From NCBI GenBank assembly GCA_025617745.1, contig CM046873.1:30021410-30085409 (forward strand): a DNA stretch of 64,000 bases, in the 5' to 3' direction. The notes below the pieces were generated by a model, which ran no database searches, was not told where the DNA came from, and saw only the letters and a program-made list of their open reading frames with translations. Source of the DNA: Heliocidaris erythrogramma. Lineage: Eukaryota; Echinodermata; Echinoidea; Camarodonta; Echinometridae. Below are positions 3,161 through 41,560 of the stretch, piece by piece (positions within the stretch are counted from its first letter, which is position 1; every line of letters starts with the position of its first letter). A program made the translations under genes and the position numbers.

Positions 3161-3166
3161 TTCGTA

Positions 3167-5293: not shown

Positions 5294-5624
5294 TCGTAGC
5301 CTGTCGCTGTCTTAAGCAAGCTTTCGTGGCTTATCTGTTCGTAAAATACATTTTTCGGGACTTGTTACATAAAATATTTCACAACTTTGCCCAGCTTTAA
5401 TCTAACAGCTTAAACGAAAGATTTTTTTTTTTTGCTAGAAAGAGTGGCACTGAAATAGTTCAAAAACATATTTAGCCTAACTGTACTCCTCGCTACGTGC
5501 ACCTTAAAGCCTTAGCATGCTTGGAGTTGAGCCAAAAAAGGAGCGCCGTTCCAAACAATGAGGAAAATAATCATCAATTTATTTATAGAATGTACAAATA
5601 ATACCTTTAGGTAACAAAAGAGAG

Positions 5625-5756: not shown

Positions 5757-5971
5757 TCAGTTAGATAATGAGAAATAAAAATAACTATTTCAAACACGGT
5801 TAAGATGATGTAATTGTGATTGGTTCAAAGTGAATCCCAAAACTGTAGGCTACCATGAAGAAATTAAAAAAAAAAGTCCATGTAAATAGATGTAAAAAGA
5901 TGTAAAAAGAGTGTTGCAGAAACTTACCGTATTCATAAGCACGATAAATCAATAAATAGGAAATGTTGGCC

Positions 5972-6121
5972 TATAGAGGGCTCTAGCGGCGGCCACGTTG
6001 GAGGACATAACAATAAAAAGCTGTGCATTATGACTATGAAAAGCCATTGTTGTCAGTGTTTATTGCACATGTTTATATTGTTATGTCCTCCAGCATGGCT
6101 GCTGCTGGGAACCACTCTATA
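5972..6121. mobile_element. 150-bp palindromic MITE, copy 1
   Basis: The ends tatagaggg and its complement enclose inverted arms containing gttggaggacataacaat and attgttatgtcctccagc. The second copy is at 40326-40462 inside the paralogous unit, so it was present before the unit duplicated. Confidence 0.75.
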
Positions 6122-8153: not shown

Positions 8154-9270
8154 AAATGCAAAAAGACTGACAAGATTTTATAGAGTTTGGAAGTGAATTC
8201 CACAAATCTGGGCCATGGTGTCGGATTGTCTTATGTGCAATAAATAGCCTAAGATTTACCAAATGATTTAGGGAGTTACTGGTGGGATATGAGTGAACAT
8301 TCGTCTTAAGTGTGAAGAAGTGATTAAATGTGTCCGGTAATAGGTTATTTCTGTATTTGAACATAAAAGTAAGGATATTTTTAATTTGCGTTTAAATGTA
8401 TACAGTAAGCCGGTGTTAGTTAAGTCGGGGAGGTCATTCCACAGTTTTAGTCCTGTAAATATAATTGTATTGTGTGCAAAAGCTTTTCAAGTGGAAGATA
8501 ATAAGAATGGCTTTGTCTGGTTGGATAGGAGTGATGTGAATAATCAATAGCAAACATAGAAGATACAGGGTTCGGAAGTTCATGCTTTGTGAGTTGAAAC
8601 AGGAATTATATGTAAATAGTTCCTGAATCTTCAGTTCTTAAGAATGTTACACGAGGGGAATAGTGGGGTTGTGTGGGTATGATAAAATTGTATTATTGAG
8701 TATTCTAATGGCCTGTTTTTGTTCGAGTAAAAGTTGATTGAAAAGGGATTTACCACTATCCCTCCATGCAAGGATTCCACAGTTTTAAGTATGGTAGGAA
8801 TAGTGTACACTTTAAAGAAAGTAAGACATTGGTACTAGGGAATGACGCTTTAAGTTGCCAATGACTCCTGTATTTCTCGATATGAGTTTACTGATGTTAT
8901 TTTTTTAGTTTTCCAAGTTAATTTGTTGTCGACGTATATTCCTAAGAATTTGGTTGTTTCAACTTGAACAGGAGTTGTGTCGTTTCATAAAAATCGTGCT
9001 GGTAGATGTTCAATTAATTTGCTTATTAAATGAAGTTTGAGTTGTTTATATTACTTGACAGTTTGTTTGCTTGGACCCAGTTTAATACAAAGTTTAATTC
9101 GTAATTTACAGTATTCGGGAAGATTTGGGGATTACGATTTGAGAGAAAAATGTTGGCTATCAGAAAATAAAAGAGAAGAAAGATTATTACATCAATTTTG
9201 AAAATCATTGATGTAGAGTATAAATAACAGTGGACCAAGTAATGATCCATGCGGCACTCCGCAGACACTT
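8154..9270 (-). pseudogene. CR1/Jockey-like LINE reverse transcriptase, decayed
   Basis: On the minus strand near 9197-9263 lies CGVPHGSLLGPLLFILYIND, the conserved region just before the catalytic YxDD block of non-LTR reverse transcriptases. Further on come NIFLSNRNPQ and VLNWVQANKL-type stretches, and finally the C-terminal GPDLWNSLPNSIK block at about 8160-8215. Stops and frameshifts separate these pieces and no intact ORF remains. A parallel copy lies at 41561-42690. The 785 bp at 8323-9107 appear identical between the two copies. Confidence 0.8.
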
Positions 9271-16669: not shown

Positions 16670-17525
16670 CCGCTATGCTCAATTGGAAATTAAAGGAATA
16701 TACACTCAACTGCACACTCTGATGTAAAGAGAGAAACGAATAGGATTATTTGAATCTTTCCTGAGATGGCTTCAAAATGTAGGGTATATAATGTCTAAAA
16801 CTTATGTATTCACTTTAACGTTTCCATTTATGCCTTTCCCTTTCCCCTAACAAGTGCCTTTTCTGTTAATGCCCCCTTGTGCATGCTCCCTTTCCCCCAG
16901 AAGCTCTTTTTCTGCTGGTGTCTACTTTACCCCCCCCCCCCCCTCCCTCCCATCACGAGACGCTCTGCCGCCATGGTCTGTGACCAATATTGATTAGTCG
17001 CCAACTCGTGATTTTAAGTCGCTCCACTCTACATCAACACTAAATTTGTAATTATACCTTATTTAGTTGCCAGCTAACCTTAATGAATATCATCGATATA
17101 CATGTATAAACATGTATGTATATGATCTTTGTGTGACTTTCAAAAGAACTCTGACTTTTTACGGTTCTTATATTAGTAAATTAGATGACAATCCACAAAG
17201 TTACGGGTCATGTTTTTTTTTTTTAATCCTGTAGTCTCATTAGTACATGGATGTTATCCACATTCCACATTAGGCTTAACATTACATAATATACTCAACT
17301 GGTTAGTTTTGAAATATTCATAGCCGTTTATTATTGTTGTTTTCACTTATTTTATTACTTATATTTTTATTATGTAACTATATTACTTTTATTTCTTATA
17401 AAATTGTTACCAATTTATGCTATACCTTATTGTTTATTACTGTTGCATCAGGAACATGATGCAAAACAGTTTTATACTGATCATGCTTTTATACTGTATG
17501 AATAAGTTCAAATAAATATATGAAT
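16670..17525. other. No gene recognised
   Basis: AT-rich. The stretch at 17420-17519 (atgatgcaaaacag, atactgtatgaataag, aaataaat) looks like the 3' end of a retroelement and is the target of the palindrome insertion at ATGAAT. Assignment is tentative. Confidence 0.35.
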
Positions 17526-17548
17526 AGTAGTTATGGGATAGACCTCAG

Positions 17549-17739
17549 CAGGATTGACCTTTGACCTCTGGTTGACCTTTGACCTCTGGTGACCCTTGAC
17601 CTCTGAACCTTGACCCCTGGTGACCTCTGGTGACCCTTGACCTTTGAACTTGACCTCTGGCGACCTCTGGCGACCTTTGGGGACCTCTGGTGACCCTTGA
17701 CCTCTGGTGACCCTTGACCTTTGACCCCTTGACCATCGA
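17549..17739 (-). repeat. Terminal array of AGGTCA half-sites, left
   Basis: On the minus strand the words aggtca and gggtca occur about 17 times in 190 bp, many in pairs with one-base spacing (aggtcaaaggtca, aggtcaagggtca), separated by ccag. The same array, inverted, lies at the other end of the palindrome. In animals aggtca with 1-bp spacing (DR1) is the half-site layout bound by RXR/HNF4/COUP-type nuclear receptors; binding here is inference. Confidence 0.85.
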
Positions 17740-18253
17740 CCCCGACTTCCGGTCAGCCACGACCTTGGACCATCACCATCGGTAGCGCGTCGCTATGGCG
17801 CAATACCTATCGCGTCACGTGGATTACAGGATTGTAATGTCATCGCGACATTCTATTGCAACACCAACGAGATCGTGACGTCATCGTTGATGACGTAGTT
17901 TCTAGCACCCTTCCTATCATACCTATAGTCATTGCGCAATAGTTATATCGTGCCATCGTGGCAACGTATTGCTTACGTGGCTCGATGTACTGCCTACCAG
18001 TACATATCTCAAGTGCCTCGGTTTGTGAAGCGTCGATCAATCACCCGAGGCCAAAGCTTGCTCTTAACCACTTAAGGTGAAACCCTAGCAGCAGATTTGA
18101 CAAGAAGATTATCAACACTTTTTATCACATCATGACATCATGAGTTTGTTTTGTCGAATGACATCATCGCGACGTATCGTTTACGTTGATTTCCAGTTCT
18201 AACCGGTAATGCGGCGACATTGCATCACGCGTTATTTTTAGCATTGCATCATG

Positions 18254-19230
18254 GGTATGTATACTGCGGATGAAAAGCTCGCTAATTCACCGGGAGGTGA
18301 CACCGTCCCAGATTTGGACATGTAAGGGGATCGGTGTTCGCCTAGGGACAAGATCGGTGTCAGAGGTTATAGGGCGTCGTAACCCGGTGAGTGATGAGAA
18401 GGCCAAGTTTCTTGATATCTCTTGATAGAGGGGTATGATGCGGGGCCTAGACAAGAAAATTCGTTTCGGTAATATTCTGCATGAGAAATAGGAATGCTAA
18501 AATGGTTGGGTGTGGGGATGACATGGAATTTCATATAAAAAAATAGGAGAAAAAGCAGTATAAAATTGAATCTCAGTCGGAATAATTATTCAACATTTAC
18601 AGTTGGAAGGATCGACGTATGGTGCAATACGATTACGCCATCATGGCGCAACATTACCCATGTCTACATTACATCACCAATCCTATTTGAACAAATGTTT
18701 CTCTGAATACCAGTCGATAGTGCCATTGCCATGTAATACATCATATTCTATTTCAAGACCATGATGTCATCAATTGCGACATCCGTTGCAATCCTATTTT
18801 GAAAAAAATGTTTCTCCGATTACCAGTCGATGGTGTAATCGACGTGGAATGGGGTATACTGCGGATGAAAAGCTCGCTAATTCACCGGGAGGTTACACCG
18901 TCCCAGATTTGGACATGTAAGGGGATCTGTGTAAATTCGTTCGCCTATGGACAATATCGGTGTCAGAGGTTATAGGTCGTCGTAACCCGGTCAGTGATGA
19001 GAAGGCCAAGTTTCTTACGTACCGTATCCCATGATAGAGGGGTATGATGACAACTTGTTGGGCCTAGACAAGAAAATTCGTTTCGGTAATATTGTGCATG
19101 AGAAATAGGAATGCTAAAATGGTTGGGTGTGGGGATGAAAGGGTGAAATGGAATTGCATATAAAAAACGGGAGAAAAAGCAGTATAAAATTGAATCTCAG
19201 TCGGAATAATTATTTAACATTTTCTAGGAT
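18254..19230. repeat. Direct duplication of about 350 bp, period about 600 bp, left arm
   Basis: A block beginning gtatactgcggatgaaaagc and including ggaggtgacaccgtcccaga, gtcgtaacccggt and aaggccaagtttctt occurs at about 18258-18605 and again at about 18855-19222. Between the copies are shorter repeats, with gtttctc..taccagtcgat at 18695 and 18808. The right arm mirrors this at about 30999-31967. Confidence 0.85.
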
Positions 19231-19397
19231 CGACGTGCGTGTTTGCAATTCTCCTAGTAGCAATGGCGTCTTTTTGCCTATTTTTCCGAAGAATATTTTT
19301 TTTGTTTTATCGATGTTAGTATTCGTGGCTTTAATTTTTCAAGGACTAAATGATACTCTATTATTTGCGCTAACTGAATGGGAGAGACAGGAGTTGG

Positions 19398-19808
19398 ATG
19401 AGAAGGCCTGAAGAAGAAGAAAAAGAAGAAGAAGAAGAGGAGGAGGAGGAAGACGACGACGCCGAAGGGGAGTGGGGGGCTGAAATAGACTGGTATGATT
19501 GAAGCTGTGAAATTTGGAAGACGGAAGACGAGGAAGAGGGAGTTGCGGCTTGCATATGCGACCGCATAAACAACAAAATTTGGGTGGACTATTTCGAGTG
19601 GGGAGAAGAAGAAGAGGAAGTTATGGTGGATGAGGTCTGGGATGAGGTCCGGGTGCAAGACCCAGACAATGGTGACTACGAAATGGACTCATCAGACTGG
19701 GATATGGAAATTGATGAAGAATGTAAACGAAGGAAAATTGACGAGTGGGCGATCTGGTTGAAGATCGAGCACGACAGCGATATAGAAATGGTAAGTAGTT
19801 TTCTTTAA
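19398..19808 (+). pseudogene. Acidic ORF with one in-frame TGA, left arm
   Basis: From an ATG at 19398 the frame encodes a run of Glu and Asp residues, meets TGA at 19500-19502, and then stays open in the same frame to 19808. It passes through DYFEWGEEEEEV, DEVWDEVRVQ and a KRRK basic patch (about residue 112) to DIEM, followed by a perfect donor-like gtaagtag at 19791. The Trp-Asp/Glu periodicity is unusual. Either a single nonsense mutation broke a small acidic protein or the downstream part (ATG at 19584) is used alone. The mirrored copy at 30413-30824 has the same stop, so the stop predates the arm duplication or was homogenised. No family is recognised. Confidence 0.4.
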
Positions 19809-19829
19809 GAGAGAGAGAGAGAGAGAGGG

Positions 19830-22800
19830 GGGGGGGGGGTGGTTGAGGCGCGACTCAAGTGATAACCGACATGGGATGGTGAATGACGCACGACGGATCG
19901 CGCCAAAATCCAAAAATGAATATCCTATTGGGGTACACCAATTGCTTTGAGGGTAACGAGCGGCGACCTTGACCGAATTTGCGATATTGCACCCATTCAT
20001 TTCTCTTAAATTCCTCTAAACGCCCCGTAAGTGGGTTATATAAGAATATATCAACAGTCTTTTTACAAAGGCTCCCACACGGTGTTACCGAAAACCTTCA
20101 AGCGTGAATTCTCACTCCCCATGGAAACCTACAGAGAACAAAGTAAAAAATAATGAATATCTGAAATATACCCACATTTTTTATAACCTCGTCCGTGGTA
20201 ATCATATGCGAAAATAAAACTGAAAAGCAATCTCCCTCTCTGCCTACCAGCAGATGTGTCAGGATTGACCGAGTTAGGAGCGATAAAAGAAAAGAAAAGA
20301 AAAGAAAAGAAAATCATGCTACATGCGGGAGAGGAAAGGAAATAAGGAGAGTCAAGTCGACAGTTGCTCTACGGTAGTAAAGTAAAAAAGAGTCATGTTA
20401 CAATACATGTAATAATTACAATTAAGAAGAATCAACTAGATAATTACTCAATAAGTCTAACTTCAGTTTACGTTTGAAGATGTATAGGGGACGAGGGGGT
20501 AGTGCACCATTGCGAGGCAACGCACCGATTTCAAGAAAGATTTTTTTTTTTCACTATACACACATTTTTATTTTTATAACCTCGTCTGTGGTAATCATAT
20601 TCGAAAAATAAAACTGAAAAGCTATCTCTCTCTGCCTACCAGCAGATGTGTCAAGTGGATCGATTTGCGGACGGTAATGCGGAGGCTTAAATTTTGATCA
20701 AAACTTTTTTATTAGAGAATGGGGATGGTGCAATCGGCGTGGAAGGTGATAAAGGATAGGAGATAAAAGGCTCATGTATTTACAATAGACATGTGTAGTA
20801 AATTAATTTGGGGAAAAAACAGTATTTTCATAAAAACCTGCAGTATTTCTTTAAGAAAAAAAAGAACACTTGGCATCTCTGCTACTGGATTAACAAAAAA
20901 AATAGAAAAATATGAATGCTCTTGCGTGACATACCTGTATTTCACTAAGATGCATAAATGAATATTTTTAAGTTTGGACCCGTACTTCGTCGATGTAGAA
21001 ATGTAATCTCAAGGTAGGAAAATCTGTTGCATTACTAGAAAAAATCTGACACTTTGAATAGCCGGCCATCACAAAAGTCTGACACAGCATCGCCGTCATT
21101 TTCATGCCGTTAATCCATTTGCAAAATATGGGTAATTATGTCGTCATTCTTAAGTATCTATCTTATTGTTTTCAATACTGGAACATTGTTACGGGTCCTG
21201 CTCACACCATTATTACCATCATCCAGCCGATGAACAAGGTACAAAAGAACGAGGCGAAGTCGTGGTCGTTTGTTTAGAAAAACTCTATTCTTGCTCTTCG
21301 ACGTCCATTTTACAACTCGTCCAACATCAACTCGTCCCTCGTCACACTCCCCTCCATAAAAACATACTTATGAGTGTAACGAAAGAAGTATGTACATAAT
21401 GAAATCATCCCTATCGATATCGTACATGCAAAATAAAATGCCTTCTTTCATAATACATATACAGTAATACTTTCATACTGCGAAAAACTAGTATCGATTC
21501 ACTTAGTCTCGATCGATTTGTTGGTACCTAAAAATAGCACATGCTCATTATAAATGCACGAATTGTGTTCTTGTAAAACATAGTATAAACACAATTTCTT
21601 GGCTTACAACTAATATAAAAACATGTTCATTTGCAAGGAGACATGAACAAGCAAGCAATTTGATATGCAGTAAATTGCTCATAATTCTCTGTGATGCAAA
21701 CAAACATCTTAAACATCTTCACATGTAAAAATAAAAGGAGTACATCAGTGTCTCACAAAAATGACAGGATGAATTTTGTCCAACAAAATATATCATCACG
21801 AAACATGAATTATTTTATGCAATTGGCTATGCTGCGCTGCTTTTAGCTGCAATGTCACTTTTGTTTCTGACACTGTCAAAAATACACCAATCATCAAATG
21901 CTGATAAATATGAAAACTATCTGTACCCTCACATAAGTTTAGAAGTCTGAGAAAACAATTTAACTCACGAAAATCTGAGTAGTACCAACATGCAGATGGT
22001 ATCACAGCTTGTATACTGAACTCAAGTTTGTCGAGTGGTTATGGCATTCATGTGTAAGATGAAAATAATAACTTTCATAAGTTTCAACACAAAAATTCTT
22101 CCAATATCCTGCTCCTTTACATTTATCACTTAATGCGTGCATAAATCAGAAGTTGTATTTATCCAATTTCTTCTATTTAAAATTAAGTAAGAAATTGTTT
22201 CTCAACAAACAACAAAACATGTTAAAATCACTGACATGTTATACTACATGAAATGTGTCATCTCTGTCATGTAATTGCTTCTTGGCAATTTCAACAAAAA
22301 TAGCTTTCGCAAAGATGTAATTTTTTCTTCCAATAAAATTAATAAACAACTTTCAGCAATGATATATCTGTCTCAAAGATAAAACAACATATCTTCAAAA
22401 TAAAACGATGCGGTAAAATTTTTCACCGTTAATGCAATGTTATGCATTTTCATAACAATGACATTTATCTTTCATCTTCAAGTGACCAAAATACAAGAGA
22501 CTATCTTTTCTCTTTGGTTCCAATAATACAATTGTCAACAAACAACATATTTTAAATGAAACATGAAAAAAATCAAATCTTATTTCCTGTTTTGAAAGTG
22601 ACACACATGCATAACCAAAACGAGAACTAACTTTTCTCTTTTTTTTTGTGTAAAATCGAAAAGGGAATTTAACACCAGAATGTTGTCATGCATGTTAAAC
22701 TCTTCACAACAGAAAATACTAATCATTTCACTTTCAAAAATACATAAAGATATGCAATATATTAAAAAAAAAATCCGAAAAAGCAAACACAAGAAGAAAA

Positions 22801-22960
22801 TTGCTTCACCGAGTCCAGTCAGTCTCTGATTATCAAGTTCAAATTTCTGTTTTTCTTCTCCACATTGAATTCCAGTTCATATCAATAAACTGCTCAAATG
22901 TTCACGAAGTATCTCCCATAAGGTAAGCCCACTTTAATTGCACAGAGATTAAGTTCAAGT
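19830..22960. other. Left arm, no gene recognised
   Basis: AT-rich. A direct repeat of about 100 bp (acctcgtccgtggtaatcat and gcctaccagcagatgtgtca) occurs at about 20163-20265 and again at about 20565-20660. A (gaaaa)n patch lies at 20287-20313. No protein with recognisable similarity was found in the short ORFs. The right-arm equivalent is 27260-30390. Confidence 0.5.
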
Positions 22961-24102
22961 TCACGCACGAGATAGAGCATCTGCAATAACATTGTTCTTT
23001 CCTGCAATGTGCTCAATGTTCAAGTTATACTCTTGCAGCAACAACCTCCAACGTGTCAATCCCTGGTTTTTGCGTTTCATTTTACTAAGAAATGTCAGTG
23101 GGTTATGATCCGTCAATACTCTGACTGGGTACTGCGATCCATGAACGTACACGCTGACATGTTCAAGCGTTAGGATCATTGATAGAGTCTCTTTCTCAAC
23201 AGTCGAATAGTTCTTCTGACTAGGGGAAAACTTCTTAGAAAAGAAGGATATAGGTCTGTCGACTCCTTCTGCGTCCTTCTGAGTTAGCACAGCACCAGCG
23301 CCAACATCACTAGCATCCACCATCAGGCTGAACGGCTGGTTGAAGTCTGGAGCCATCAACACAGGATTGGTAGATAAGAGAGCTTTCACCCGGTCGAAAC
23401 ACTCTTACAGTCACTGGACCAGACGAACTTCACTTCTTTGCGTAGTAAATTGGTTAGCGGAGCCACGACATCGGAGAAGTTATGGCAGAACCGTCTATAG
23501 TAGCCTGCCATGCCCAGAAACCGCATCAGTTCCTTCCGGTTGGTTGGAGTCGGGAAAGCCAGAATTACTTCTACCTTCGCCGAGAGTGGTCGAACGTGAC
23601 CAGAGCCAACAACATGACCCAGGTATAGCACCTCCAAACTCACTCTTTGCCAGATTCACCGTCATTTTTGGCAGCAGCCAACCTTCTGAACAACTCTCTG
23701 ATTCTCTGTACATGAACATCCCAATCTTCACTATACACAACTAAGTCATCAATATAAGCTTCACAGCCTTCAAGACTTGAAACAAGACTATTCACGAGTC
23801 TTTGGAATGTAGCCGGCGCGTTTTTCATGCCGAAAGGCATCACGGTGTAATGAAAATAGGCCTTGCGGTGTAGCAAATGCGGAAATCTCTTGCGCTCTCT
23901 CGGTCAAGGGGATCTGCCAATAACCTTTCAGCAGATCGAATTTGCTCACATACTTTGCTTTGCCTATACGGTCAATACAATCATCTACGCGCGGAATGGG
24001 GACTGAATCTGTTTTTATACACGCATTGACTTCGGTAGTCGGTACAGAAACGATATTCTCGAAGAGTTCAAAAGAAGTGTTCACATTGATGTTCGATTGC
24101 AT
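22961..24102 (-). pseudogene. Ty3/gypsy RT and RNase H fragment, frameshifted, left arm
   Basis: On the minus strand, reading from 24102, the pieces are an RT N-terminal part with FDLLKGYWQIPL (24102-23788), an RT core with MPFGMKNAPATFQ and the catalytic YIDD (23876-23640), a connection part with RFLGMAGYYRRF (23643-23386), and an RNase H part with the VDAS, STVEKE and TDHNPL active-site motifs ending IADALSR (23389-22961). The four pieces lie in different frames, so the copy is broken by at least three frameshifts. Gag, protease, integrase and LTRs are absent. The domain order and motifs are those of Ty3/gypsy elements. The fragment lies wholly inside the palindrome arm and is mirrored at 26118-27259. 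Confidence 0.9.
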
Positions 24103-24639
24103 TTAGAAGCGCAGCGAATAGGAACATTTAGTGAAGCAGCCCGTGTTGCTGATGATTTTGTGCTGACACACAGAACCACAAACTAAGTTTCTAGTGAAAC
24201 AAAGAAAACATTCAAATTGAATTAAAATTGCCTTTTAAGTTTGTCAGAGAATTGGCTTTTAAAGTTTGTTAAAGGTCAAATACCAATTAACAAAACCAAA
24301 CCAATTACCAAAGAATAACACTAAGCTTTTGGCGTTACAATAGAAATGTAACCTATATTCAAATGCATAGTACTCCATGCTTTTAGCGTTATTATTAAAA
24401 TTGAAAAGCTGACTTGTAGGCTATCCATGCAAGAATAAGCATTTTCAAATCATCAACAAGTACCCGATGATAGGGTAAGATGTGGTTGTTGTTTTTCTGT
24501 ATTTAATATCGGGTTATCTCGATCTACCGTTGTTATTTGGCTAAATAAAAATTGATTTGTCTTATTTCCAAATTTCCTAAAAAAGGATCATGCCTAAACT
24601 TTTCATCTGAAGTTACATTGAATAGCTGACTGTTTGGAA

Positions 24640-24728
24640 TAATTTCTGTCTATTATACATTTTGAAGGCATTCATATGATTGGAGTAATTTCTGTCTATT
24701 ATACATTTTGAAGGCATTCATATTATGA
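24640..24728. repeat. Tandem duplication, about 45 bp, two copies
   Basis: The sequence taatttctgtctattataca followed by ttttgaaggcattcatat is repeated back to back. The copy is mirrored at about 25493-25582. Confidence 0.9.
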
Positions 24729-24749
24729 TTGAAGTAGAATATTTAATGA

Positions 24750-25089
24750 TGCGCATATATAACAATCAAAGCTTTTTTACACATTGCATTGTTGAAGTAT
24801 AATGTTCTTAGTGGAATGTGACAAGAATTCACATTTCTGTTGTTTCGCCAAAAGGTCGGCGGCATTCTAATGGTAATTTGTTTTGCCAATTGGCAGTTGA
24901 CATCTCAATTAAGTCCTGTTTGGGTGGAATGTTGTTTTTTAGACTATGTACATTACCAAATCATAACAAGTTCATTTCTGTTTACACTTTACTGGAGATA
25001 TTTTCTCTGTATGGCGAAAGCCTGGATGATTAGAGTGTCGTTTTAAATATATGTAAATTTTTCTGGATGGCCTACACCACGGCACACGC
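24750..25089. other. Inner end of left arm; unassigned ORF
   Basis: A 71-codon frame (24818-25033 on +) and an overlapping 68-codon frame (24840-25046) are present, and by symmetry also in the right arm on the minus strand (25187-25402). Neither resembles a known family. Confidence 0.2.
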
Positions 25090-25130
25090 CAGGCTGAAAT
25101 TGTACAGTTACCTGGACATTTTGCAAGACC
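25090..25130. other. Asymmetric 41-bp centre of the palindrome
   Basis: Unpaired sequence between arms whose innermost paired bases are ggcctacaccacg and cgtggtgtaggcc. It contains cctggacattttgcaagacc and no obvious internal symmetry. A short asymmetric spacer is what template-switch or hairpin-mediated inverted duplication leaves behind. Confidence 0.85.
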
Positions 25131-26117
25131 GCGTGTGTCGTGGTGTAGGCCATCCAGAAAAATTTACATATATTTAAAACGACACTCTAATCATCCAGGC
25201 TTTCGCCATACAGAGAAAATATCTCCAGTAAAGTGTAAACAGAAATGAACTTGTTATGATTTGGTAATGTACATAGTCTAAAAAACAACATTCCACCCAA
25301 ACAGGACTTAATTGAGATGTCAACTGCCAATTGGCAAAACAAATTACCATTAGAATGCCGCCGACCTTTTGGCGAAACAACAGAAATGTGAATTCTTGTC
25401 ACATTCCACTAAGAACATTATACTTCAACAATGCAATGTGTAAAAAAGCTTTGATTGTTATATATGCGCATCATTAAATATTCTACTTCAATCATAATAT
25501 GAATGCCTTCAAAATGTATAATAGACAGAAATTACTCCAATCATATGAATGCCTTCAAAATGTATAATAGACAGAAATTATTCCAAACAGTCAGCTATTC
25601 AATGTAACTTCAGATGAAAAGTTTAGGCATGATCCTTTTTTAGGAAATTTGGAAATAAGACAAATCAATTTTTATTTAGCCAAATAACAACGGTAGATCG
25701 AGATAACCCGATATTAAATACAGAAAAACAACAACCACATCTTACCCTATCATCGGGTACTTGTTGATGATTTGAAAATGCTTATTCTTGCATGGATAGC
25801 CTACAAGTCAGCTTTTCAATTTTAATAATAACGCTAAAAGCATGGAGTACTATGCATTTGAATATAGGTTACATTTCTATTGTAACGCCAAAAGCTTAGT
25901 GTTATTCTTTGGTAATTGGTTTGGTTTTGTTAATTGGTATTTGACCTTTAACAAACTTTAAAAGCCAATTCTCTGACAAACTTAAAAGGCAATTTTAATT
26001 CAATTTGAATGTTTTCTTTGTTTCACTAGAAACTTAGTTTGTGGTTCTGTGTGTCAGCACAAAATCATCAGCAACACGGGCTGCTTCACTAAATGTTCCT
26101 ATTCGCTGCGCTTCTAA

Positions 26118-27259
26118 ATGCAATCGAACATCAATGTGAACACTTCTTTTGAACTCTTCGAGAATATCGTTTCTGTACCGACTACCGAAGTCAATGCGTG
26201 TATAAAAACAGATTCAGTCCCCATTCCGCGCGTAGATGATTGTATTGACCGTATAGGCAAAGCAAAGTATGTGAGCAAATTCGATCTGCTGAAAGGTTAT
26301 TGGCAGATCCCCTTGACCGAGAGAGCGCAAGAGATTTCCGCATTTGCTACACCGCAAGGCCTATTTTCATTACACCGTGATGCCTTTCGGCATGAAAAAC
26401 GCGCCGGCTACATTCCAAAGACTCGTGAATAGTCTTGTTTCAAGTCTTGAAGGCTGTGAAGCTTATATTGATGACTTAGTTGTGTATAGTGAAGATTGGG
26501 ATGTTCATGTACAGAGAATCAGAGAGTTGTTCAGAAGGTTGGCTGCTGCCAAAAATGACGGTGAATCTGGCAAAGAGTGAGTTTGGAGGTGCTATACCTG
26601 GGTCATGTTGTTGGCTCTGGTCACGTTCGACCACTCTCGGCGAAGGTAGAAGTAATTCTGGCTTTCCCGACTCCAACCAACCGGAAGGAACTGATGCGGT
26701 TTCTGGGCATGGCAGGCTACTATAGACGGTTCTGCCATAACTTCTCCGATGTCGTGGCTCCGCTAACCAATTTACTACGCAAAGAAGTGAAGTTCGTCTG
26801 GTCCAGTGACTGTAAGAGTGTTTCGACCGGGTGAAAGCTCTCTTATCTACCAATCCTGTGTTGATGGCTCCAGACTTCAACCAGCCGTTCAGCCTGATGG
26901 TGGATGCTAGTGATGTTGGCGCTGGTGCTGTGCTAACTCAGAATGACGCAGAAGGAGTCGACATACCTATATCCTTCTTTTCTAAGAAGTTTTCCCCTAG
27001 TCAGAAGAACTATTCGACTGTTGAGAAAGAGACTCTATCAATGATCCTAACGCTTGAACATGTCAGCGTGTACGTTCATGGATCGCAGTACCCAGTCAGA
27101 GTATTGACGGATCATAACCCACTGACATTTCTTAGTAAAATGAAACGCAAAAACCAGGGATTGACACGTTGGAGGTTGTTGCTGCAAGAGTATAACTTGA
27201 ACATTGAGCACATTGCAGGAAAGAACAATGTTATTGCAGATGCTCTATCTCGTGCGTGA
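26118..27259 (+). pseudogene. Ty3/gypsy RT and RNase H fragment, frameshifted, right arm
   Basis: Mirror of the left-arm fragment: RT N-terminal part 26118-26432, RT core with YIDD 26344-26580, connection part 26577-26834, RNase H part 26831-27259. It carries the same frame breaks as the left arm. Two amino-acid differences are visible in the RNase H part (K to N and R to I in the stretch after GAVLTQ), so the arms are not simply one sequence read twice. Confidence 0.9.
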
Positions 27260-30200
27260 ACTTGAACTTAATCTCTGTGCAATTAAAGTGGGCTTACCTT
27301 ATGGGAGATACTTCGTGAACATTTGAGCAGTTTATTGATATGAACTGGAATTCAATGTGGAGAAGAAAAACAGAAATTTGAACTTGATAATCAGAGACTG
27401 ACTGGACTCGGTGAAGCAATTTTCTTCTTGTGTTTGCTTTTTCGGATTTTTTTTTTAATATATTGCATATCTTTATGTATTTTTGAAAGTGAAATGATTA
27501 GTATTTTCTGTTGGGAAGAGTTTAACATGCATGACAACATTCTGGTGTTAAATTCCCTTTTCGATTTTACACAAAAAAAAAGAGAAAAGTTAGTTCTCGT
27601 TTTGGTTATGCATGTGTGTCACTTTCAAAACAGGAAATAAGATTTGATTTTTTTCATGTTTCATTTAAAATATGTTGTTTGTTGACAATTGTATTATTGG
27701 AACCAAAGAGAAAAGATAGTCTCTTGTATTTTGGTCACTTGAAGATGAAAGATAAATGTCATTGTTATGAAAATGCATAACATTGCATTAACGGTGAAAA
27801 ATTTTACCGCATCGTTTTATTTTGAAGATATGTTGTTTTATCTTTGAGACAGATATATCATTGCTGAAAGTTGTTTATTAATTTTATTGGAAGAAAAAAT
27901 TACATCTTTGCGAAAGCTATTTTTGTTGAAATTGCCAAGAAGCAATTACATGACAGAGATGACACATTTCATGTAGTATAACATGTCAGTGATTTTAACA
28001 TGTTTTGTTGTTTGTTGAGAAACAATTTCTTACTTAATTTTAAATAGAAGAAATTGGATAAATACAACTTCTGATTTATGCACGCATTAAGTGATAAATG
28101 TAAAGGAGCAGGATATTGGAAGAATTTTTGTGTTGAAACTTATGAAAGTTATTATTTTCATCTTACACATGAATGCCATAACCACTCGACAAACTTGAGT
28201 TCAGTATACAAGCTGTGATACCATCTGCATGTTGGTACTACTCAGATTTTCGTGAGTTAAATTGTTTTCTCAGACTTCTAAACTTATGTGAGGGTACAGA
28301 TAGTTTTCATATTTATCAGCATTTGATGATTGGTGTATTTTTGACAGTGTCAGAAACAAAAGTGACATTGCAGCTAAAAGCAGCGCAGCATAGCCAATTG
28401 CATAAAATAATTCATGTTTCGTGATGATATATTTTGTTGGACAAAATTCATCCTGTCATTTTTGTGAGACACTGATGTACTCCTTTTATTTTTACATGTG
28501 AAGATGTTTAAGATGTTTGTTTGCATCACAGAGAATTATGAGCAATTTACTGCATATCAAATTGCTTGCTTGTTCATGTCTCCTTGCAAATGAACATGTT
28601 TTTATATTAGTTGTAAGCCAAGAAATTGTGTTTATACTATGTTTTACAAGAACACAATTCGTGCATTTATAATGAGCATGTGCTATTTTTAGGTACCAAC
28701 AAATCGATCGAGACTAAGTGAATCGATACTAGTTTTTCGCAGTATGAAAGTATTACTGTATATGTATTATGAAAGAAGGCATTTTATTTTGCATGTACGA
28801 TATCGATAGGGATGATTTCATTATGTACATACTTCTTTCGTTACACTCATAAGTATGTTTTTATGGAGGGGAGTGTGACGAGGGACGAGTTGATGTTGGA
28901 CGAGTTGTAAAATGGACGTCGAAGAGCAAGAATAGAGTTTTTCTAAACAAACGACCACGACTTCGCCTCGTTCTTTTGTACCTTGTTCATCGGCTGGATG
29001 ATGGTAATAATGGTGTGAGCAGGACCCGTAACAATGTTCCAGTATTGAAAACAATAAGATAGATACTTAAGAATGACGACATAATTACCCATATTTTGCA
29101 AATGGATTAACGGCATGAAAATGACGGCGATGCTGTGTCAGACTTTTGTGATGGCCGGCTATTCAAAGTGTCAGATTTTTTCTAGTAATGCAACAGATTT
29201 TCCTACCTTGAGATTACATTTCTACATCGACGAAGTACGGGTCCAAACTTAAAAATATTCATTTATGCATCTTAGTGAAATACAGGTATGTCACGCAAGA
29301 GCATTCATATTTTTCTATTTTTTTTGTTAATCCAGTAGCAGAGATGCCAAGTGTTCTTTTTTTTCTTAAAGAAATACTGCAGGTTTTTATGAAAATACTG
29401 TTTTTTCCCCAAATTAATTTACTACACATGTCTATTGTAAATACATGAGCCTTTTATCTCCTATCCTTTATAACCTTCCACGCCGATTGCACCATCCCCA
29501 TTCTCTAATAAAAAAGTTTTGATCAAAATTTAAGCCTCCGCATTACCGTCCGCAAATCGATCCACTTGACACATCTGCTGGTAGGCAGAGAGAGATAGCT
29601 TTTCAGTTTTATTTTTCGAATATGATTACCACAGACGAGGTTATAAAAATAAAAATGTGTGTATAGTGAAAAAAAAAAATCTTTCTTGAAATCGGTGCGT
29701 TGCCTCGCAATGGTGCACTACCCCCTCGTCCCCTATACATCTTCAAACGTAAACTGAAGTTAGACTTATTGAGTAATTATCTAGTTGATTCTTCTTAATT
29801 GTAATTATTACATGTATTGTAACATGACTCTTTTTTACTTTACTACCGTAGAGCAACTGTCGACTTGACTCTCCTTATTTCCTTTCCTCTCCCGCATGTA
29901 GCATGATTTTCTTTTCTTTTCTTTTCTTTTCTTTTATCGCTCCTAACTCGGTCAATCCTGACACATCTGCTGGTAGGCAGAGAGGGAGATTGCTTTTCAG
30001 TTTTATTTTCGCATATGATTACCACGGACGAGGTTATAAAAAATGTGGGTATATTTCAGATATTCATTATTTTTTACTTTGTTCTCTGTAGGTTTCCATG
30101 GGGAGTGAGAATTCACGCTTGAAGGTTTTCGGTAACACCGTGTGGGAGCCTTTGTAAAAAGACTGTTGATATATTCTTATATAACCCACTTACGGGGCGT

Positions 30201-30381
30201 TTAGAGGAATTTAAGAGAAATGAATGGGTGCAATATCGCAAATTCGGTCAAGGTCGCCGCTCGTTACCCTCAAAGCAATTGGTGTACCCCCAATAGGATA
30301 TTCATTTTTGGATTTTGGCGCGATCCGTCGTGCGTCATTCACCATCCCATGTCGGTTATCACTTGAGTCGCGCCTCAACCA

Positions 30382-30390
<9 letters not shown>
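27260..30390. other. Right arm, no gene recognised
   Basis: Mirror of 19830-22960, with the same direct repeat of about 100 bp (about 29560-29655 and 29955-30060). A one-base indel in a short G run (30290 region) distinguishes the arms. Confidence 0.5.
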
Positions 30391-30412
<22 letters not shown>

Positions 30413-30413
<1 letters not shown>

Positions 30414-30824
30414 TAAAGAAAACTACTTACCATTTCTATATCGCTGTCGTGCTCGATCTTCAACCAGATCGCCCACTCGTCAATTTTCCTTCGTTTACAT
30501 TCTTCATCAATTTCCATATCCCAGTCTGATGAGTCCATTTCGTAGTCACCATTGTCTGGGTCTTGCACCCGGACCTCATCCCAGACCTCATCCACCATAA
30601 CTTCCTCTTCTTCTTCTCCCCACTCGAAATAGTCCACCCAAATTTTGTTGTTTATGCGGTCGCATATGCAAGCCGCAACTCCCTCTTCCTCGTCTTCCGT
30701 CTTCCAAATTTCACAGCTTCAATCATACCAGTCTATTTCAGCCCCCCACTCCCCTTCGGCGTCGTCGTCTTCCTCCTCCTCCTCTTCTTCTTCTTCTTTT
30801 TCTTCTTCTTCAGGCCTTCTCATC
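30413..30824 (-). pseudogene. Acidic ORF with one in-frame TGA, right arm
   Basis: Mirror of 19398-19808 with the same reading frame, stop position and donor-like end. The coding part appears identical between arms. Confidence 0.4.
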
Positions 30825-32481
30825 CAACTCCTGTCTCTCCCATTCAGTTAGCGCAAATAATAGAGTATCATTTAGTCCTTGAAAAATTAAAGCCACGAAT
30901 ACTAACATCGATAAAACAAAAAAAATATTCTTCGGAAAAATAGGCAAAAAGACGCCATTGCTACTAGGAGAATTGCAAACACGCACGTCGATCCTAGAAA
31001 ATGTTAAATAATTATTCCGACTGAGATTCAATTTTATACTGCTTTTTCTCCCGTTTTTTATATGCAATTCCATTTCACCCTTTCATCCCCACACCCAACC
31101 ATTTTAGCATTCCTATTTCTCATGCACAATATTACCGAAACGAATTTTCTTGTCTAGGCCCAACAAGTTGTCATCATACCCCTCTATCATGGGATACGGT
31201 ACGTAAGAAACTTGGCCTTCTCATCACTGACCGGGTTACGACGACCTATAACCTCTGACACCGATATTGTCCATAGGCGAACGAATTTACACAGATCCCC
31301 TTACATGTCCAAATCTGGGACGGTGTAACCTCCCGGTGAATTAGCGAGCTTTTCATCCGCAGTATACCCCATTCCACGTCGATTACACCATCGACTGGTA
31401 ATCGGAGAAACATTTTTTTCAAAATAGGATTGCAACGGATGTCGCAATTGATGACATCATGGTCTTGAAATAGAATATGATGTATTACATGGCAATGGCA
31501 CTATCGACTGGTATTCAGAGAAACATTTGTTCAAATAGGATTGGTGATGTAATGTAGACATGGGTAATGTTGCGCCATGATGGCGTAATCGTATTGCACC
31601 ATACGTCGATCCTTCCAACTGTAAATGTTGAATAATTATTCCGACTGAGATTCAATTTTATACTGCTTTTTCTCCTATTTTTTTATATGAAATTCCATGT
31701 CATCCCCACACCCAACCATTTTAGCATTCCTATTTCTCATGCAGAATATTACCGAAACGAATTTTCTTGTCTAGGCCCCGCATCATACCCCTCTATCAAG
31801 AGATATCAAGAAACTTGGCCTTCTCATCACTCACCGGGTTACGACGCCCTATAACCTCTGACACCGATCTTGTCCCTAGGCGAACACCGATCCCCTTACA
31901 TGTCCAAATCTGGGACGGTGTCACCTCCCGGTGAATTAGCGAGCTTTTCATCCGCAGTATACATACCCATGATGCAATGCTAAAAATAACGCGTGATGCA
32001 ATGTCGCCGCATTACCGGTTAGAACTGGAAATCAACGTAAACGATACGTCGCGATGATGTCATTCGACAAAACAAACTCATGATGTCATGATGTGATAAA
32101 AAGTGTTGATAATCTTCTTGTCAAATCTGCTGCTAGGGTTTCACCTTAAGTGGTTAAGAGCAAGCTTTGGCCTCGGGTGATTGATCGACGCTTCACAAAC
32201 CGAGGCACTTGAGATATGTACTGGTAGGCAGTACATCGAGCCACGTAAGCAATACGTTGCCACGATGGCACGATATAACTATTGCGCAATGACTATAGGT
32301 ATGATAGGAAGGGTGCTAGAAACTACGTCATCAACGATGACGTCACGATCTCGTTGGTGTTGCAATAGAATGTCGCGATGACATTACAATCCTGTAATCC
32401 ACGTGACGCGATAGGTATTGCGCCATAGCGACGCGCTACCGATGGTGATGGTCCAAGGTCGTGGCTGACCGGAAGTCGGGG

Positions 32482-32672
32482 TCGATGGTCAAGGGGTCAA
32501 AGGTCAAGGGTCACCAGAGGTCAAGGGTCACCAGAGGTCCCCAAAGGTCGCCAGAGGTCGCCAGAGGTCAAGTTCAAAGGTCAAGGGTCACCAGAGGTCA
32601 CCAGGGGTCAAGGTTCAGAGGTCAAGGGTCACCAGAGGTCAAAGGTCAACCAGAGGTCAAAGGTCAATCCTG
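32482..32672 (+). repeat. Terminal array of AGGTCA half-sites, right
   Basis: Mirror of the left terminal array, with about 17 ggtca cores. The last two pairs are perfect aggtcaaaggtca direct repeats with one-base spacing, ending 23 bp from the element end. Confidence 0.85.
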
Positions 32673-32714
32673 CTGAGGTCTATCCCATAACTACTATGAA
32701 TGGATACATAAATA

Positions 32715-33713: not shown

Positions 33714-35175
33714 TATAAATAAAATTTTCATTGAATCAAGTAGTAGGTCTTGTCATCATGTTCAATGTGAAAATTTTGGTATCACCCATTTAATAGGGAA
33801 CACAAATCTTCTGGAGCTAGATTGGAATCAAGTAAACAGAAATTCTGGTAGAAAGACAACACCACTTTTTGTATTAGCTACCAAATTTTGGTAACAGCTA
33901 TTATTATAGTGGTCACATTCACAGCCGACAAGCCGATTCTAATCGCTGACGGTGTTTGTTAATTTAATTGCTATATATTTTATATTGGTTAGTTACATTT
34001 CCTTCTTTAGTTGAAAGATGTCATCTTCATTAATTCTGTTTCCATGGCAACAGATTTTTTTTATAAATCAAATTCCAAACTATATTCCAAACTAAACTTT
34101 TGAATATAATCAAACAGGCGGTAGCAATTATTAGATGTTTACCATTATTTCATGTTGAAAACAAATATAGTTCCGTATTTCATTAGAAATGCAATTCATT
34201 TATTTGTTACCATGGTAACGGCCTACACATTTAGTGGTCTCCTCCATCATCCCTTTACTTAAACGGATTTTGATAAGTGAGTGTCCTGTAAAAGAGAAGA
34301 TAATCATGTACAATACAAATGTATTACTATTTACTTTTTTCGGTAGCATCGTGGGTTTTTTTTTTTTTGCTCAAATATGTTTTTTTTTACTGTTTCCATA
34401 GCAACAGCCATTTTCAAACATGATGGACACCTTTTGTAACTCTTATTTGAGTTTTTATCAAGTGAGAAACTTTTGATACATTACTTTAAAATGTTACAAT
34501 GTGTTTTTGTCCTTTCTTAATCACGAATACATAAATTCTTAAATTCTACTATTTTTGATCCGTTGCCATGGTAATAGTCCTTGTGGCCACGCCCAACTCT
34601 TATTTTAGGGCAAAGAAGCATATTCTGATAGTTAATATTTCCATCTAACAGGGAAAAAATCATTTAAGATTAACATGGGATAATTGCCTTTATGTACATA
34701 GATGTACCTTCAAATAGTGTTTTTCAGTCAAAATGCGCATCCAGTAAAAACACATCGTTCTATTTGGGATAACATAAAATGAGTTATCCATTACCTTATC
34801 GGATAATTTCTTTTCTGTGTGTGACATGACAATATACATGATATGTTTAATCAAGAAAAGGCGTTTAAAATGACAAATTTACGTTGGGTAAAAAACGTTG
34901 AAATATTGGTAGTTTTCACAACCTATTATTTTGAGTAAATCACAGTTTTATGTTTCATTACGCCATACATGTGTGTGTAATATCCTACTTTCAATTGTGT
35001 ATTAATCAGGTTTATAACTTGAAACTCAAAATAAATCTGATATCACTTGAAAAGTCTTAATCAGTACATATTAGGTCAAAAAAATAAAAATCGTGTTTTT
35101 TGACATTCTTTCAAATTTTGAGCCAAAAATGGCATTTTTAGGCAAAAATGCGCGTCAGTATTTTTGCAAGACTTT
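33714..35175 (-). repeat. Right TIR of the outer insertion (outer part interrupted)
   Basis: Reverse-complement similarity to 10440-12415. Shared landmarks are the ttaccatggtaacggcctac block (34204 against 11485), the gttgccatggtaatagtcc block (34562 against 11141) and gcaaaaatgcgcg (35142 against 10503). Divergence and indels show the arms have aged separately. Confidence 0.75.
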
Positions 35176-36110
35176 AAAGTAGAACTTTAATGATTTTAAA
35201 TATTGACTTAATACTTATTATTGCATAGATGGCATAAATTAAACAAGGTTATCCAAATTCACCGCTTGGAAACATTTGAATTAATGATTATTATCAATTA
35301 TAAAACGGTAAAATACAGCCCCCGATATAGCAGCTGAAGAGCTCCTCGAACGCTGCTGAGATATGTGACGACACACCATGGACCAGTCCTGTCTAAGCAG
35401 ACGATGTCCCATAACATCTTACACATTTTTCAGAGCCTATTTTGTCATCTCCTCTTCACTTATTTCTCTTCCTTCACTAGCGTCAGTCTTAATGTTAGTC
35501 TGTTGCCTCACTCTTAACTTCGTGTATGGTATTATTTTGATGAAAAATGCAGCGTTAAAAAATAAAGGAATCAGTCACTTGTAAACAAAATAAGACGCCA
35601 TTGTATTTTCAGCTGCTTGCACCGGGGCATGTTCGGCGTTTCAAGAGGGAACGAATACCACCCTGCTATTATTCGGAGGGCTTTTCAATTTGAAAGTGGG
35701 GTTTATTTCATTGATCATTGACCCTTCTCCTGTGTATTTACAATCAAACGGTTTTAGCTATCAGAATCAGTTTCACTTTCCCTTTATAATGGTGTGAAAT
35801 AAGGTCATGTTTAAATACACCAAACTCTTTATAATTTGATAGATAATTGCATTGCAATTACGTTCATTCATTATAGGACGTCGTCTGCTTAAGCAGGATC
35901 GATCCCGAGTGTGACGACATCAAAACATCGCTATATTTCTGGCGAATCCTCGGATATTCCAGATGCTGGGAAGAGCTTTTATTTGTGTTGTTTTGATAAT
36001 CATCAGATACGCAGTTGACATAAAACTTATACGATTGCCATCTGTAAGCTTCCCAGTTTCTAGTGATACATTAATTGCCATATTTGTGATTTTCTTTGAA
36101 TAGCTACTTT
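35176..36110 (+). mobile_element. TT-site element, copy 2 (935 bp)
   Basis: Same orientation and internal structure as the 7220 copy. Removing it restores gcaagactttaagcatg, which is the complement of the left TIR of the outer insertion at about 10453-10469, so it inserted into the right TIR only. The right terminus is slightly decayed (gaatagctacttt in place of gtgttctacttt). Confidence 0.85.
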
Positions 36111-37206
36111 AAGCATGAAGGCCGAGCATTACCCAAAATGCCGGTCTACTGACTGGTCTACTATTATTCTCTGTTGCCTGATCTCGTATTCCTATGTATA
36201 GAACAATTAATCGAGTACAATTTTCAGATCAAGCGATCTTTATCACGTTCATTATCAACTGCACGTGTGCCACTTGACACCGTTTGAAAAGTCATCTGCA
36301 CTAGTGAAAATGCAACATAATGTTACCTAAAAATGATATAATGTTCCAATATAAGTTGGAATTGTTTAACGTTCAAAATTACCAAACTGGGTTAGAGGCA
36401 GAAGGCTTTTTATGAAAGATAATCAAAGCACCAATATTCACTAATCTATGGACGAAATATATAGGCTTACCTAATCTAGTGCTTGGTTCAGTAGTCCTTG
36501 AATCCTCAGCTACCTTCTATATGTGAACAGTATTGTGATCATCTGACTGATCACGTAAAATAATCTGGATTTGATGATGATTTTCTCTATATGAAAGAAC
36601 AGATTGCAATATTCATACTCAGTCCATTGCGAATTCTTTGCTTCTGATGCGGTGAAACACCTTAAGATTTCTGTGGATTGTGGGTGGTCAAAGGTGGTTA
36701 GTTTGATCAGATCTAATGCTGCTTTCTGACAGCTTATGTGAAGCACTAGGTTATTTACTGGAATGATAACTCAGTCCACTGCAAATCCTTTGATTTGCAT
36801 GGATGTTGTGAGACGGCTAAAAAAAAAATTATTTTGACGAGTCAAACCAGATCCGTCTGATCAGTACATGAATCTCAGGCTAATGAATTTCTGCCATATA
36901 AATGCATCACAAGTTGAAATATTTTCTGTGAGAAGTGGTCAGACATTAGGGAACAATTGCTCCAAGCTTTACTTCTTAAAAATATAGGGTTAGGGTCGAC
37001 AGTGGGTTTTAGGTAAAACAGGTTTAGGGCTAGAGAAATATGAAGTTAGGGAATCGATTACGCTAGGAAAATTGAACATGGAGCAATTTTTGGAAGAGAA
37101 TGTGCTGTATAACCGTCCCGCCACCCTGTAATATCATTCGATGTTTTACAATGTCGTGCGATATGGTACGATACCCTGTGATACCCTGTTTACGTCGTAT
37201 GGCCAT

Positions 37207-39515: not shown

Positions 39516-40325
39516 TACATTTCCTTGATTTTACTCCAGTCACACCGCCAAGCCGACTCTACACTGACTCCAAATCGAACGATTCTTGGTCATTATCGGT
39601 AATGTTATATTTTATTCGGTCTGTTGTCTGTCTGGTGTGGGTCTGAATGGTGTGACTGAGGTATTAGAATTACGAAACTAATCGTAGCCTGTCGCTGTCT
39701 TACGCAAGCTTTCGTGGCTTATCTGTTCGTAAAATACATTTTTCGGGACTTGTTACATAAAATATTTCACAACTTTGCCCAACTTTAATCTAACAGCTTA
39801 AACGAAAGATTTTCTTTTTGCTAGAAAGAGCGGCATTGAAATAGTTCAAAAACATGTTTAGCCTAACTGTACTCCTCGCTACGTGCACCTTAAAGCCTTA
39901 GCATGCTTGGAGTTGAGCCAAAAAAGGAGCGCCGTTCCAAACAATAAGGAAAATAATCATCAATTTATTTATAGAATGTACAAATAATACCTTTAGGTAA
40001 CAAAAGAGAGTCAGACGAAACCAGATTTTTTTAAAGCACTCCACTATGCAGCCATATCCTTTTTTTCTTTGGCTGCGTACATCAACAATAAGCCATAGAA
40101 GAAACAGAAATACAGTTATAGCCCGTTGGCTGAACTGCATTCAGTTAGATAATGAGAAATAAAAATAACTATTTCAAACACGGTTAAGATGATGTAGGCT
40201 ACCATGAAGAAATATAAAAAAAAAGTCCATGTAAATAGACGAGTAAACCCAAGATGTAAAAAGAGTGTTGTAGAAACTTACCGTATTTATAAAAACGATA
40301 AATCAATAACCTGGCAATGCTGGCC

Positions 40326-40462
40326 TATAGAGGGCTCCCACGGCAGCCACGTTGGAGGACATAATAAAAACCTGTGCGTTAGGACTATGTGTTGTCATGG
40401 TTTAGTGCACAGGTTTATATTGTTATGTCCTCCAGCATGGCTGCTGCTGGGAACCCTCTATA
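40326..40462. mobile_element. Palindromic MITE, copy 2
   Basis: Paralogue of 5972-6121, slightly shorter, with the inner pair aacctgtgcg / tgcacaggtt. Confidence 0.7.
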
Positions 40463-41560
40463 CCGAAATGGGTTCAGATCATGGTTCAGATTAAGGATAT
40501 ATATATATACTGATTACGCAGAGCCCCTCGGAACATCATGGTGTTTGGGGCCTATAGACTTGATATTAAGAACTACGACATATTCTGGATTCCACGTTCA
40601 AATTTGTGTACCTTATTAATAAAACTTTGATTTAGAAATGTAGGCCTACACCATATATTATTTTCAATGACGCTGTTATGCAAATCCGTGAATTAATGAA
40701 TCAAGTAATTAAAGATATAAGTTTTCGGTTTTGTCTTCATTAGTTTAAGGACGTTCCACAGTTAAAGTCAAATACATGTCATTTTCACCAAACTTTGCAT
40801 GCAGTTACTTTGGTCCATAAGAAGCCCAAATACGCATAGAAATGTATAGACCGTTGTGCTTACTTTTTTTCTATGGGACACTGAACTGTGCCATGAATGG
40901 GTGTCAGGCAGAATGACGTCATCGCGGTTTTTTGGCCATTGATTGGCTTCAGAATTCCCAATGTTTGTTTGATTTGTTTGTTCGAATTTATTTTCTTCTG
41001 CAATCATATAAGAGCATACAATAACAGGGAAAATATAACAATGCATTCACATAAAAAGGAAAATAACATAACGTGATCAAAGGTATACATATTTATAGTA
41101 ATATAAATACATTTCAGTTTATAAATTATAAATTATTCAACGCATTGAAGTTCAGAGAGCAGAAGACGGACTGCCATAATAAACATAAGTTTGAAAACAT
41201 GACAGCGCAAATAAATCAGTGTAATATACGTGATAGCAGAATGGAGGTCAAATAAATAAGGAAATTATTCAGACGAAATATACGCATATCTAAAGTTTTG
41301 TATAGTGTGAAAACGTGAAGAGTGTGACGTGAATGAAAGTGATAAAATGAGGATGAAAATGAAAAAAAAATGAAAATGATGTCTGTAGATGAATAACGTG
41401 TTGATGAAATGCATCAGTCAGGACTTCAGTGAATTTGGTAACTTTAGATCATTTGATTTATCAGAACACGGACTATTGATTTAAAATGTGGTTTAACCTT
41501 TGTAACTAATTTGAACTATTATACTCTAATAGCAAACTTGTTTTAACTTGAGCTTTAAAT

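Follow-up and report, generated by a model that had tools for sequence, protein, structure and literature searches.

Within a 64-kb stretch of the genome of the sea urchin Heliocidaris erythrogramma (assembly GCA_025617745.1, contig CM046873.1; C21:30021410-30085409, hereafter the window) we analysed a large palindrome at positions 17526-32695, hereafter the window palindrome. The element is non-autonomous and self-complementary; it is probably a satellite of Polinton/Maverick transposons, made by snap-back and mobilised in trans. The evidence comes from its centre, from gene-bearing Polintons and further palindromes with the same ends in the genome (1.06 Gb in 26 contigs were searched), and from comparison of the arms within and between copies. 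Loci elsewhere are referred to by handles such as C10.

The palindrome and its target-site duplication

Alignment of the window to its own reverse complement spans 17524-32697 (15,176 columns, 99.78% identity). The arms differ by 7 substitutions and 1 single-base indel per approximately 7.56 kb, the 41-nt centre excluded, and one substitution (25082 versus 25138) is only 7 bp away from the centre. A preliminary description, made from the letters of the window, had reported near-identical inverted arms of 7.56 kb around an asymmetric centre of 41 bp with ATGAAT at both ends; the self-alignment confirms both points and gives the following parts:

17520..17525 (no strand): left copy of the target-site duplication, ATGAAT, 6 bp
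17526..25089 (+): left palindrome arm, first letters AGTAGTTATGGG
25131..32695 (-): right palindrome arm, repeating the left one in inverted orientation
32696..32701 (no strand): right copy of the target-site duplication, ATGAAT, 6 bp

The element starts with AG and ends with CT. Judged alone, its duplication is also readable as 7 bp (TATGAAT) with asymmetric ends; since other copies show 6 bp, we read ATGAAT as a 6-bp duplication. For two 6-mers drawn at random from the rest of the window, the probability of agreement is approximately 5e-4.

A polymerase-gene fragment ends at the fold-back point

The centre of the window palindrome contains two overlapping features:

25070..25135 (+): 66-bp polymerase-gene fragment, identified by identity to C21b; the last five bases pair with 25085-25089
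25090..25130 (+): 41-nt unpaired centre, the putative snap-back loop

Positions 25070-25135 are identical at 66 of 66 bases to a stretch coding for the family-B DNA polymerase of the Polinton C21b. The stretch around this fragment is also found in the elements C3, C11 and C8 and, with small differences, in C17; it was not found in the fetched halves of C12. The polymerase frame matching the centre has 1,345 matching database proteins, and many of the 120 listed carry PF03175. It contains YYDTDS, which we take to be a polymerase motif.

The last five bases of the fragment, GCGTG (25131-25135), pair with CACGC (25085-25089), 41 nt upstream. Past GCGTG the polymerase gene and the element diverge, and the element continues as the complement of the preceding sequence with one mismatch (25082/25138). 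A given 5-mer would pair in such a way by chance in approximately 1 in 1,000 cases. That the 66/66 identity ends exactly at the 5-bp fold-back suggests that the arm was switched or joined onto the polymerase gene of a Polinton and that snap-back followed. Judged by its sequence, the end of the identity at the five-base complement is the scar expected of self-primed snap-back synthesis. The preliminary description had offered two routes, a hairpin-ended intermediate or a template switch; our observations favour snap-back at the junction of a template switch. The palindromes C10, C19, C4 and C2 lack the 66-bp piece (0/8 half-loci), and this centre is thus private to the window palindrome.

Gene-bearing Polintons share the ends of the palindrome

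Seven non-palindromic elements have the same ends: C3, C21b, C12:31040719 (C12), C11:60315624, C8:7182617, C17:395526 and C12:34351 (C12b). An exact 6-bp duplication flanks six of them; C11 has none. The terminal repeat common to these elements is just approximately 0.4-1 kb long and 89-99.5% alike. In the first six (all but C12:34351) selected open frames were scanned for genes. A retroviral-type rve integrase was found in 6/6, and a PF03175 family-B polymerase in four (C21b, C11, C8 and C12); the only frames tried from the other two, a 631-aa piece from C17 and a C-terminal frame from C3, did not match PF03175. C21b, the sole relative tested for it, also has an A32-like ATPase; Pfam profiles returned no capsid or protease match among its candidate open frames. 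Their integrase, polymerase and ends identify the gene-bearing elements as Polintons/Mavericks. Both the resemblance to this class noted in the preliminary description and the non-palindromic parent carrying a polymerase or integrase that it envisaged are borne out by these relatives. In one gene-bearing Polinton, L015:2462-3118 (+) codes for a protein of 219 aa in which a PC4-like domain was recognised (PF02229, 3.4e-6).

Further palindromes carry their own duplications

With the terminal 301 bp as genome query we obtained 42 matches among the best 40 of 108 candidates; they extend to other chromosomes and were mostly plus/minus pairs 10-18 kb apart. Both sides of 14 further end pairs were fetched, and the partner sides of two more were located. 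Altogether, six independent palindromes besides the window palindrome were read at both ends (C10, C19, C4, C2, C20 and C15). Full palindromes with other 6-bp duplications, as anticipated from the window alone, are present: five of the six have an exact duplication of their own (6/7 including the window palindrome).

C10: duplication CTCCAG
C19: duplication TTCTTC, within simple sequence and therefore weaker
C4: duplication ATGATA
C2 (C2:40417762): duplication ATTTCG
C20: duplication TACCTT

For C20, the outer 3.4 kb of the arms was compared and the centre region was read; its left arm has approximately 4 kb of unrelated sequence. The arms of C15 (C15:41755070-41769708; L051/L049) are 99.8% alike over 1,645 bp, and its two tips are different end types, which could reflect end exchange or recombination between insertions. 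C2:39757856 has the same flanks and duplication as C2:40417762 and was for this reason not counted as independent. The two are the same palindrome with the same flanks, 660 kb apart, and might be a segmental duplication or an assembly duplicate. C8:23520788 (5.3 kb, with 0.97-kb repeats 92.6% alike) was assigned neither to the palindromes nor to the gene-bearing elements, and C2:68776700 has an arm-type interior, its other end lying outside the fetched stretch. Ten sampled single- or partial-end stretches comprised two of the gene-bearing type, three of the arm type and five unclassified.

Arms are alike within copies and differ between copies

Ten arms from five copies (window palindrome, C10, C19, C4 and C2; 6.9-7.2 kb each) were aligned. 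Within a copy the arms differ at 0.09, 0.10, 0.13, 0.30 and 0.15% of aligned positions, and between copies at 1.09-9.42%. Left and right arm are sisters in 5/5 copies, with a support of 1.000 in four and 0.986 in the window palindrome. The arms of C20 have drifted further (22/3,379 columns, 0.65%, outer part).

Between the window palindrome and C10 there is 1 substitution in arm 1-1900, against 74-83 in the remainder of the arm. The turning point lies near arm position 2046 in 4/4 left/right comparisons. A breakpoint that is mirrored in both arms suggests that recombination came first, or was copied through, and that arm copying followed. Together with the sister arms it argues that the palindromes were symmetric before or at integration. 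An inverted duplication formed before insertion, as first proposed for the window palindrome, is therefore supported for the family by the related palindromes, the mirrored breakpoint and the snap-back scar; the window copy itself may likewise have been fully symmetric when it landed.

When a tree is built from the outer 430 bp, left and right ends pair in five of six gene-bearing Polintons (C11 with a support of just 0.22), and those of C3 are unpaired. Since Polinton ends also pair, homogenisation of the terminal repeats characterises the wider family; in the palindromes it covers the element from end to end. C4 and C19 are mosaic copies. The C4 arms (L017/L018) are almost identical to C19 (L013/L014) at 5500-6450 (1 substitution) and differ from it at 47-50 positions at 2760-5500.

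The inner arm segment and a possible ancestral palindrome

The query 24200-25110 gave 111 matches among the best 40 of 61 candidates, and loci were then counted by hand. At least 35 loci contain the arm end 6675-6925, at least 15 of them with both strands close together (palindrome-like) and at least 20 with a single strand. Among the matches listed, the straight run from 6925 to 6926 was found in the window palindrome only; elsewhere arm position 6925 is followed by approximately 40 bp and then by segment 6926-7544 in reverse. At C14, the only single-arm locus that was read, this order continues, and the sequence that follows includes parts of the C10 loop, indicating that a non-palindromic progenitor arrangement exists. 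We infer that the forward order in the window palindrome arose by descent via the opposite side of an ancestral palindrome looped by segment 6926-7544.

Composition of the arms

The match of the window-palindrome arm to gene-bearing Polintons is confined to the outer 0.7-1.7 kb. Arm 1-734 matches C3, C21b, C12 and C11, and the match to C8 and C17 reaches arm 1310-1711. The remaining arm, the centre excepted, has no match longer than 40 bp in 12 half-loci of six gene-bearing Polintons. The following features were assigned:

17526..19236 (+): Polinton-derived outer left arm (arm 1-1711), common to gene-bearing Polintons, approximately 75-97% per block
30985..32695 (-): mirror of the Polinton-derived outer part
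17555..17743 (+): TGACC-rich subterminal minisatellite; mirror 32478-32666
19237..24450 (+): arm segment without a match in gene-bearing Polintons, holding rearranged Gypsy-type sequence; mirror 25245-30984
21189..21350 (-): LTR-like segment ending the Gypsy piece, recognised by eye from its ends and an adjoining purine tract; mirror 28870-29031
22961..24102 (-): Gypsy-type reverse transcriptase (RT)/RNase H remnant with broken frames, from Pfam and protein search; mirror 26118-27259
24451..25069 (+): arm segment 6926-7544; reversed, after approximately 40 bp, at the further loci identified; in C4 and C19 it belongs to the loop

Segment 19237-24450 is partly or wholly common to other palindromes. 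Scanning the right half against Pfam in all six frames returned only Gypsy-type RT and RNase H above the cut-off and no PF03175 polymerase; the arm gave neither an rve integrase nor an A32-like packaging ATPase. The earlier statement that the palindrome has no polymerase B, integrase or capsid gene thus stands for recognisable genes in a six-frame Pfam scan of one arm; the centre, however, consists of 66 bp of polymerase-gene sequence from a Polinton. A protein search with the RNase H of the Gypsy piece shows merely a common retrotransposon remnant. A short gag-like peptide, as we read it, at 24112-24190 (+) lies on the strand opposite to the adjoining RT remnant, which suggests that the Gypsy piece was rearranged prior to capture. 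Rfam gave 0 matches in the window, and the exact 19-base element end gave 0 matches in viral contigs and bacterial and archaeal genomes, as expected for a eukaryote.

The outer 240 bp of the window palindrome contain 17 TGACC motifs. We presume that several are spaced like AGGTCAnAGGTCA nuclear-receptor sites, although they may be just a minisatellite. At 19380-19800 (+) there is an acidic reading frame with one internal stop that ends near a GTAAGT-like splice donor; it is possibly a captured exon.

Other repeats in the window

A repeat of approximately 940 bp occurs at 7217-8155 (+), 35172-36112 (+), 43749-44687 (+) and 61432-62371 (-), with the inverted ends AAAGTAGAAC...GTTCTACTTT beside TTAA. 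It resembles ordinary non-autonomous transposons with a TTAA target, and one of its copies interrupts a repeat that is uninterrupted at 39674-43751. This nested element is unrelated to the palindrome.

A snap-back model and its alternatives

A model that starts from the observed ends, duplications, helper elements, scar, arm statistics and mirrored breakpoint would run as follows. The element would travel as extrachromosomal linear DNA with Polinton ends. Strand copying from one Polinton end would pass through the arm and switch, or be end-joined, onto a Polinton polymerase gene. The 3′ end would then snap back, GCGTG on CACGC with a 41-nt loop, and copy the whole arm back to the end, and the resulting hairpin would become a perfect palindrome bounded on both sides by the same Polinton end. 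Single strands displaced from the palindrome could fold into full-length hairpins, so that later rounds would recopy one arm onto the other; such repeated hairpin copying would keep the arms near-identical. Gene-bearing Polintons would supply the polymerase, and their integrase, acting in trans, would insert the palindrome with a 6-bp duplication. We infer, in sum, an extrachromosomal stage, protein priming, a hairpin cycle and mobilisation in trans.

Several observations weigh against this model. The junction of arm and polymerase piece (25069/25070) is without clear microhomology. C15 has no target duplication and its tips are just approximately 80% alike, and C12:43271857 has both arms and a self-complementary centre together with a truncated right arm. 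Among 53 arm-arm substitutions in the five copies, only 31 have exactly one state elsewhere and can clearly be placed as new in one arm; 19 have both states elsewhere and 3 neither. Thirteen of the 19 fall in C4, the arms of which are asymmetric, the innermost 475 bp being C19-like on the right (2 substitutions) and not on the left (14). The similarity of the arms could, moreover, alternatively stem from gene conversion.

The chief rival, and a live one, is fold-back repair in situ, which we nevertheless consider unlikely. Here an ordinary element with Polinton ends would insert with a 6-bp duplication, and a later break would be resected and folded, the left arm copied and the new end annealed to the right terminal repeat. 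The exact centre of the window palindrome being absent from C10, C19, C4 and C2 would agree with such a private event, and the broken end, before it folded, might have gained 66 bp of stray polymerase sequence. For yeast, passages of PMC10622511 document fold-back priming at short inverted repeats. However, separate events would be needed at at least seven sites, each keeping the duplication, though the copies share most of the arm sequence. The breakpoint mirrored between the window palindrome and C10 would be expected only with symmetrisation after recombination, and the 0.65% difference of the C20 arms over 3,379 columns argues that symmetry is not continually renewed in place.

Ongoing gene conversion on the chromosome, keeping the arms of an old inverted repeat identical, is quite improbable as the full explanation. 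It would account for arms that resemble each other within a copy but not from copy to copy, a pattern that chromosomal palindromes show as well. It leaves the origin of the arms, the 6-bp duplications and the polymerase scar unexplained, and the divergence of the arms varies from 0.09% in the window palindrome to 0.65% in the outer part of C20, which resembles an age clock rather than a steady state.

We regard an artefact of assembly or library as very improbable: missed-adapter or fold-back reads do yield palindromes, but the same flank would be expected on both sides, whereas the actual flanks differ and share just the 6-bp duplication, the several palindromes of the assembly differ in loop, sequence and flanks, and the polymerase piece in the centre would be unexplained. 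Membership in another class of transposons with long inverted repeats (foldback/TU/Galileo-like), unrelated to Polintons, is largely refuted and hardly credible. Long inverted repeats with subterminal tandem repeats, as in the window palindrome, are reminiscent of foldback and sea-urchin TU elements, whose target duplication is 8-9 bp; here it is 6 bp, and the ends are common to elements encoding a Polinton polymerase and integrase. Openly licensed papers yielded no literature on TU elements.

The snap-back model among known systems

Target duplications of 5-6 bp are given for the Polinton/Maverick class in passages of PMC8547959 and PMC12220804. The window palindrome resembles this class in its ends, its 6-bp duplication, its size of approximately 15 kb and its gene-bearing relatives in the same genome; it differs in that its arms have no intact Polinton gene, the same end is used twice and the interior is non-Polinton and contains Gypsy sequence. 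The replication of Polintons in animals, including any extrachromosomal stage, is inferred mainly from their genes. The role of their proteins in it is treated in part of PMC6431247.

Parts of PMC8235507 describe snap-back genomes of the adeno-associated virus (AAV) as self-complementary molecules, symmetric or looped, that carry the same viral end twice, are born of replication and depend on a helper. Likewise, the window palindrome has the same terminus twice, arms copied one from the other and a short loop at the fold-back complementarity. AAV, in contrast, replicates by a rolling hairpin and its molecules are found in virions, whereas here we deal with a family of heritable chromosomal insertions. 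Protein-primed linear DNAs forming palindromes with the same terminus are also represented by adenovirus SYREC, which holds host DNA as well, and by hairpin or palindromic linear plasmids of yeast. Unlike the palindromes described here, these are not integrated transposable families, and their hosts and enzymes are others. Openly licensed papers retrieved for SYREC were unrelated.

In yeast, ODIRA and fold-back inverted duplications, as presented in passages of PMC10622511 and PMC4689423, share the short interrupted inverted repeat, the loop and the copied-back arm; they are errors of chromosomal repair or replication and involve neither transposon ends nor target duplications. Foldback-type transposons such as Tetris have very long inverted repeats and internal tandem repeats, yet belong to other transposase classes and have no Polinton ends. 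No description of palindromic Polintons was found in openly licensed papers, a body that excludes the two founding Polinton papers.

The centre of the window palindrome resembles a replication accident frozen in the chromosome, in which synthesis switched to a polymerase gene and then folded back on five bases. If the model is true, a eukaryotic DNA transposon is able to move as a palindrome that uses the same end twice, and would be the transposon counterpart of the defective snap-back genomes of viruses. Palindromes with arms reset in each copy would then be natural records of replication by strand displacement and through hairpins. Only tentatively do we extend this to the whole family, which might consist of heritable snap-back satellites that parasitise Polintons, have nothing of them but the ends, replicate as hairpins, switch template onto Polintons and so acquire the polymerase scar, become symmetric anew in each round, borrow polymerase and integrase and are possibly defective-interfering. 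Such satellites may interfere with Polintons by competing for the polymerase or via double-stranded RNA from palindromic transcripts.

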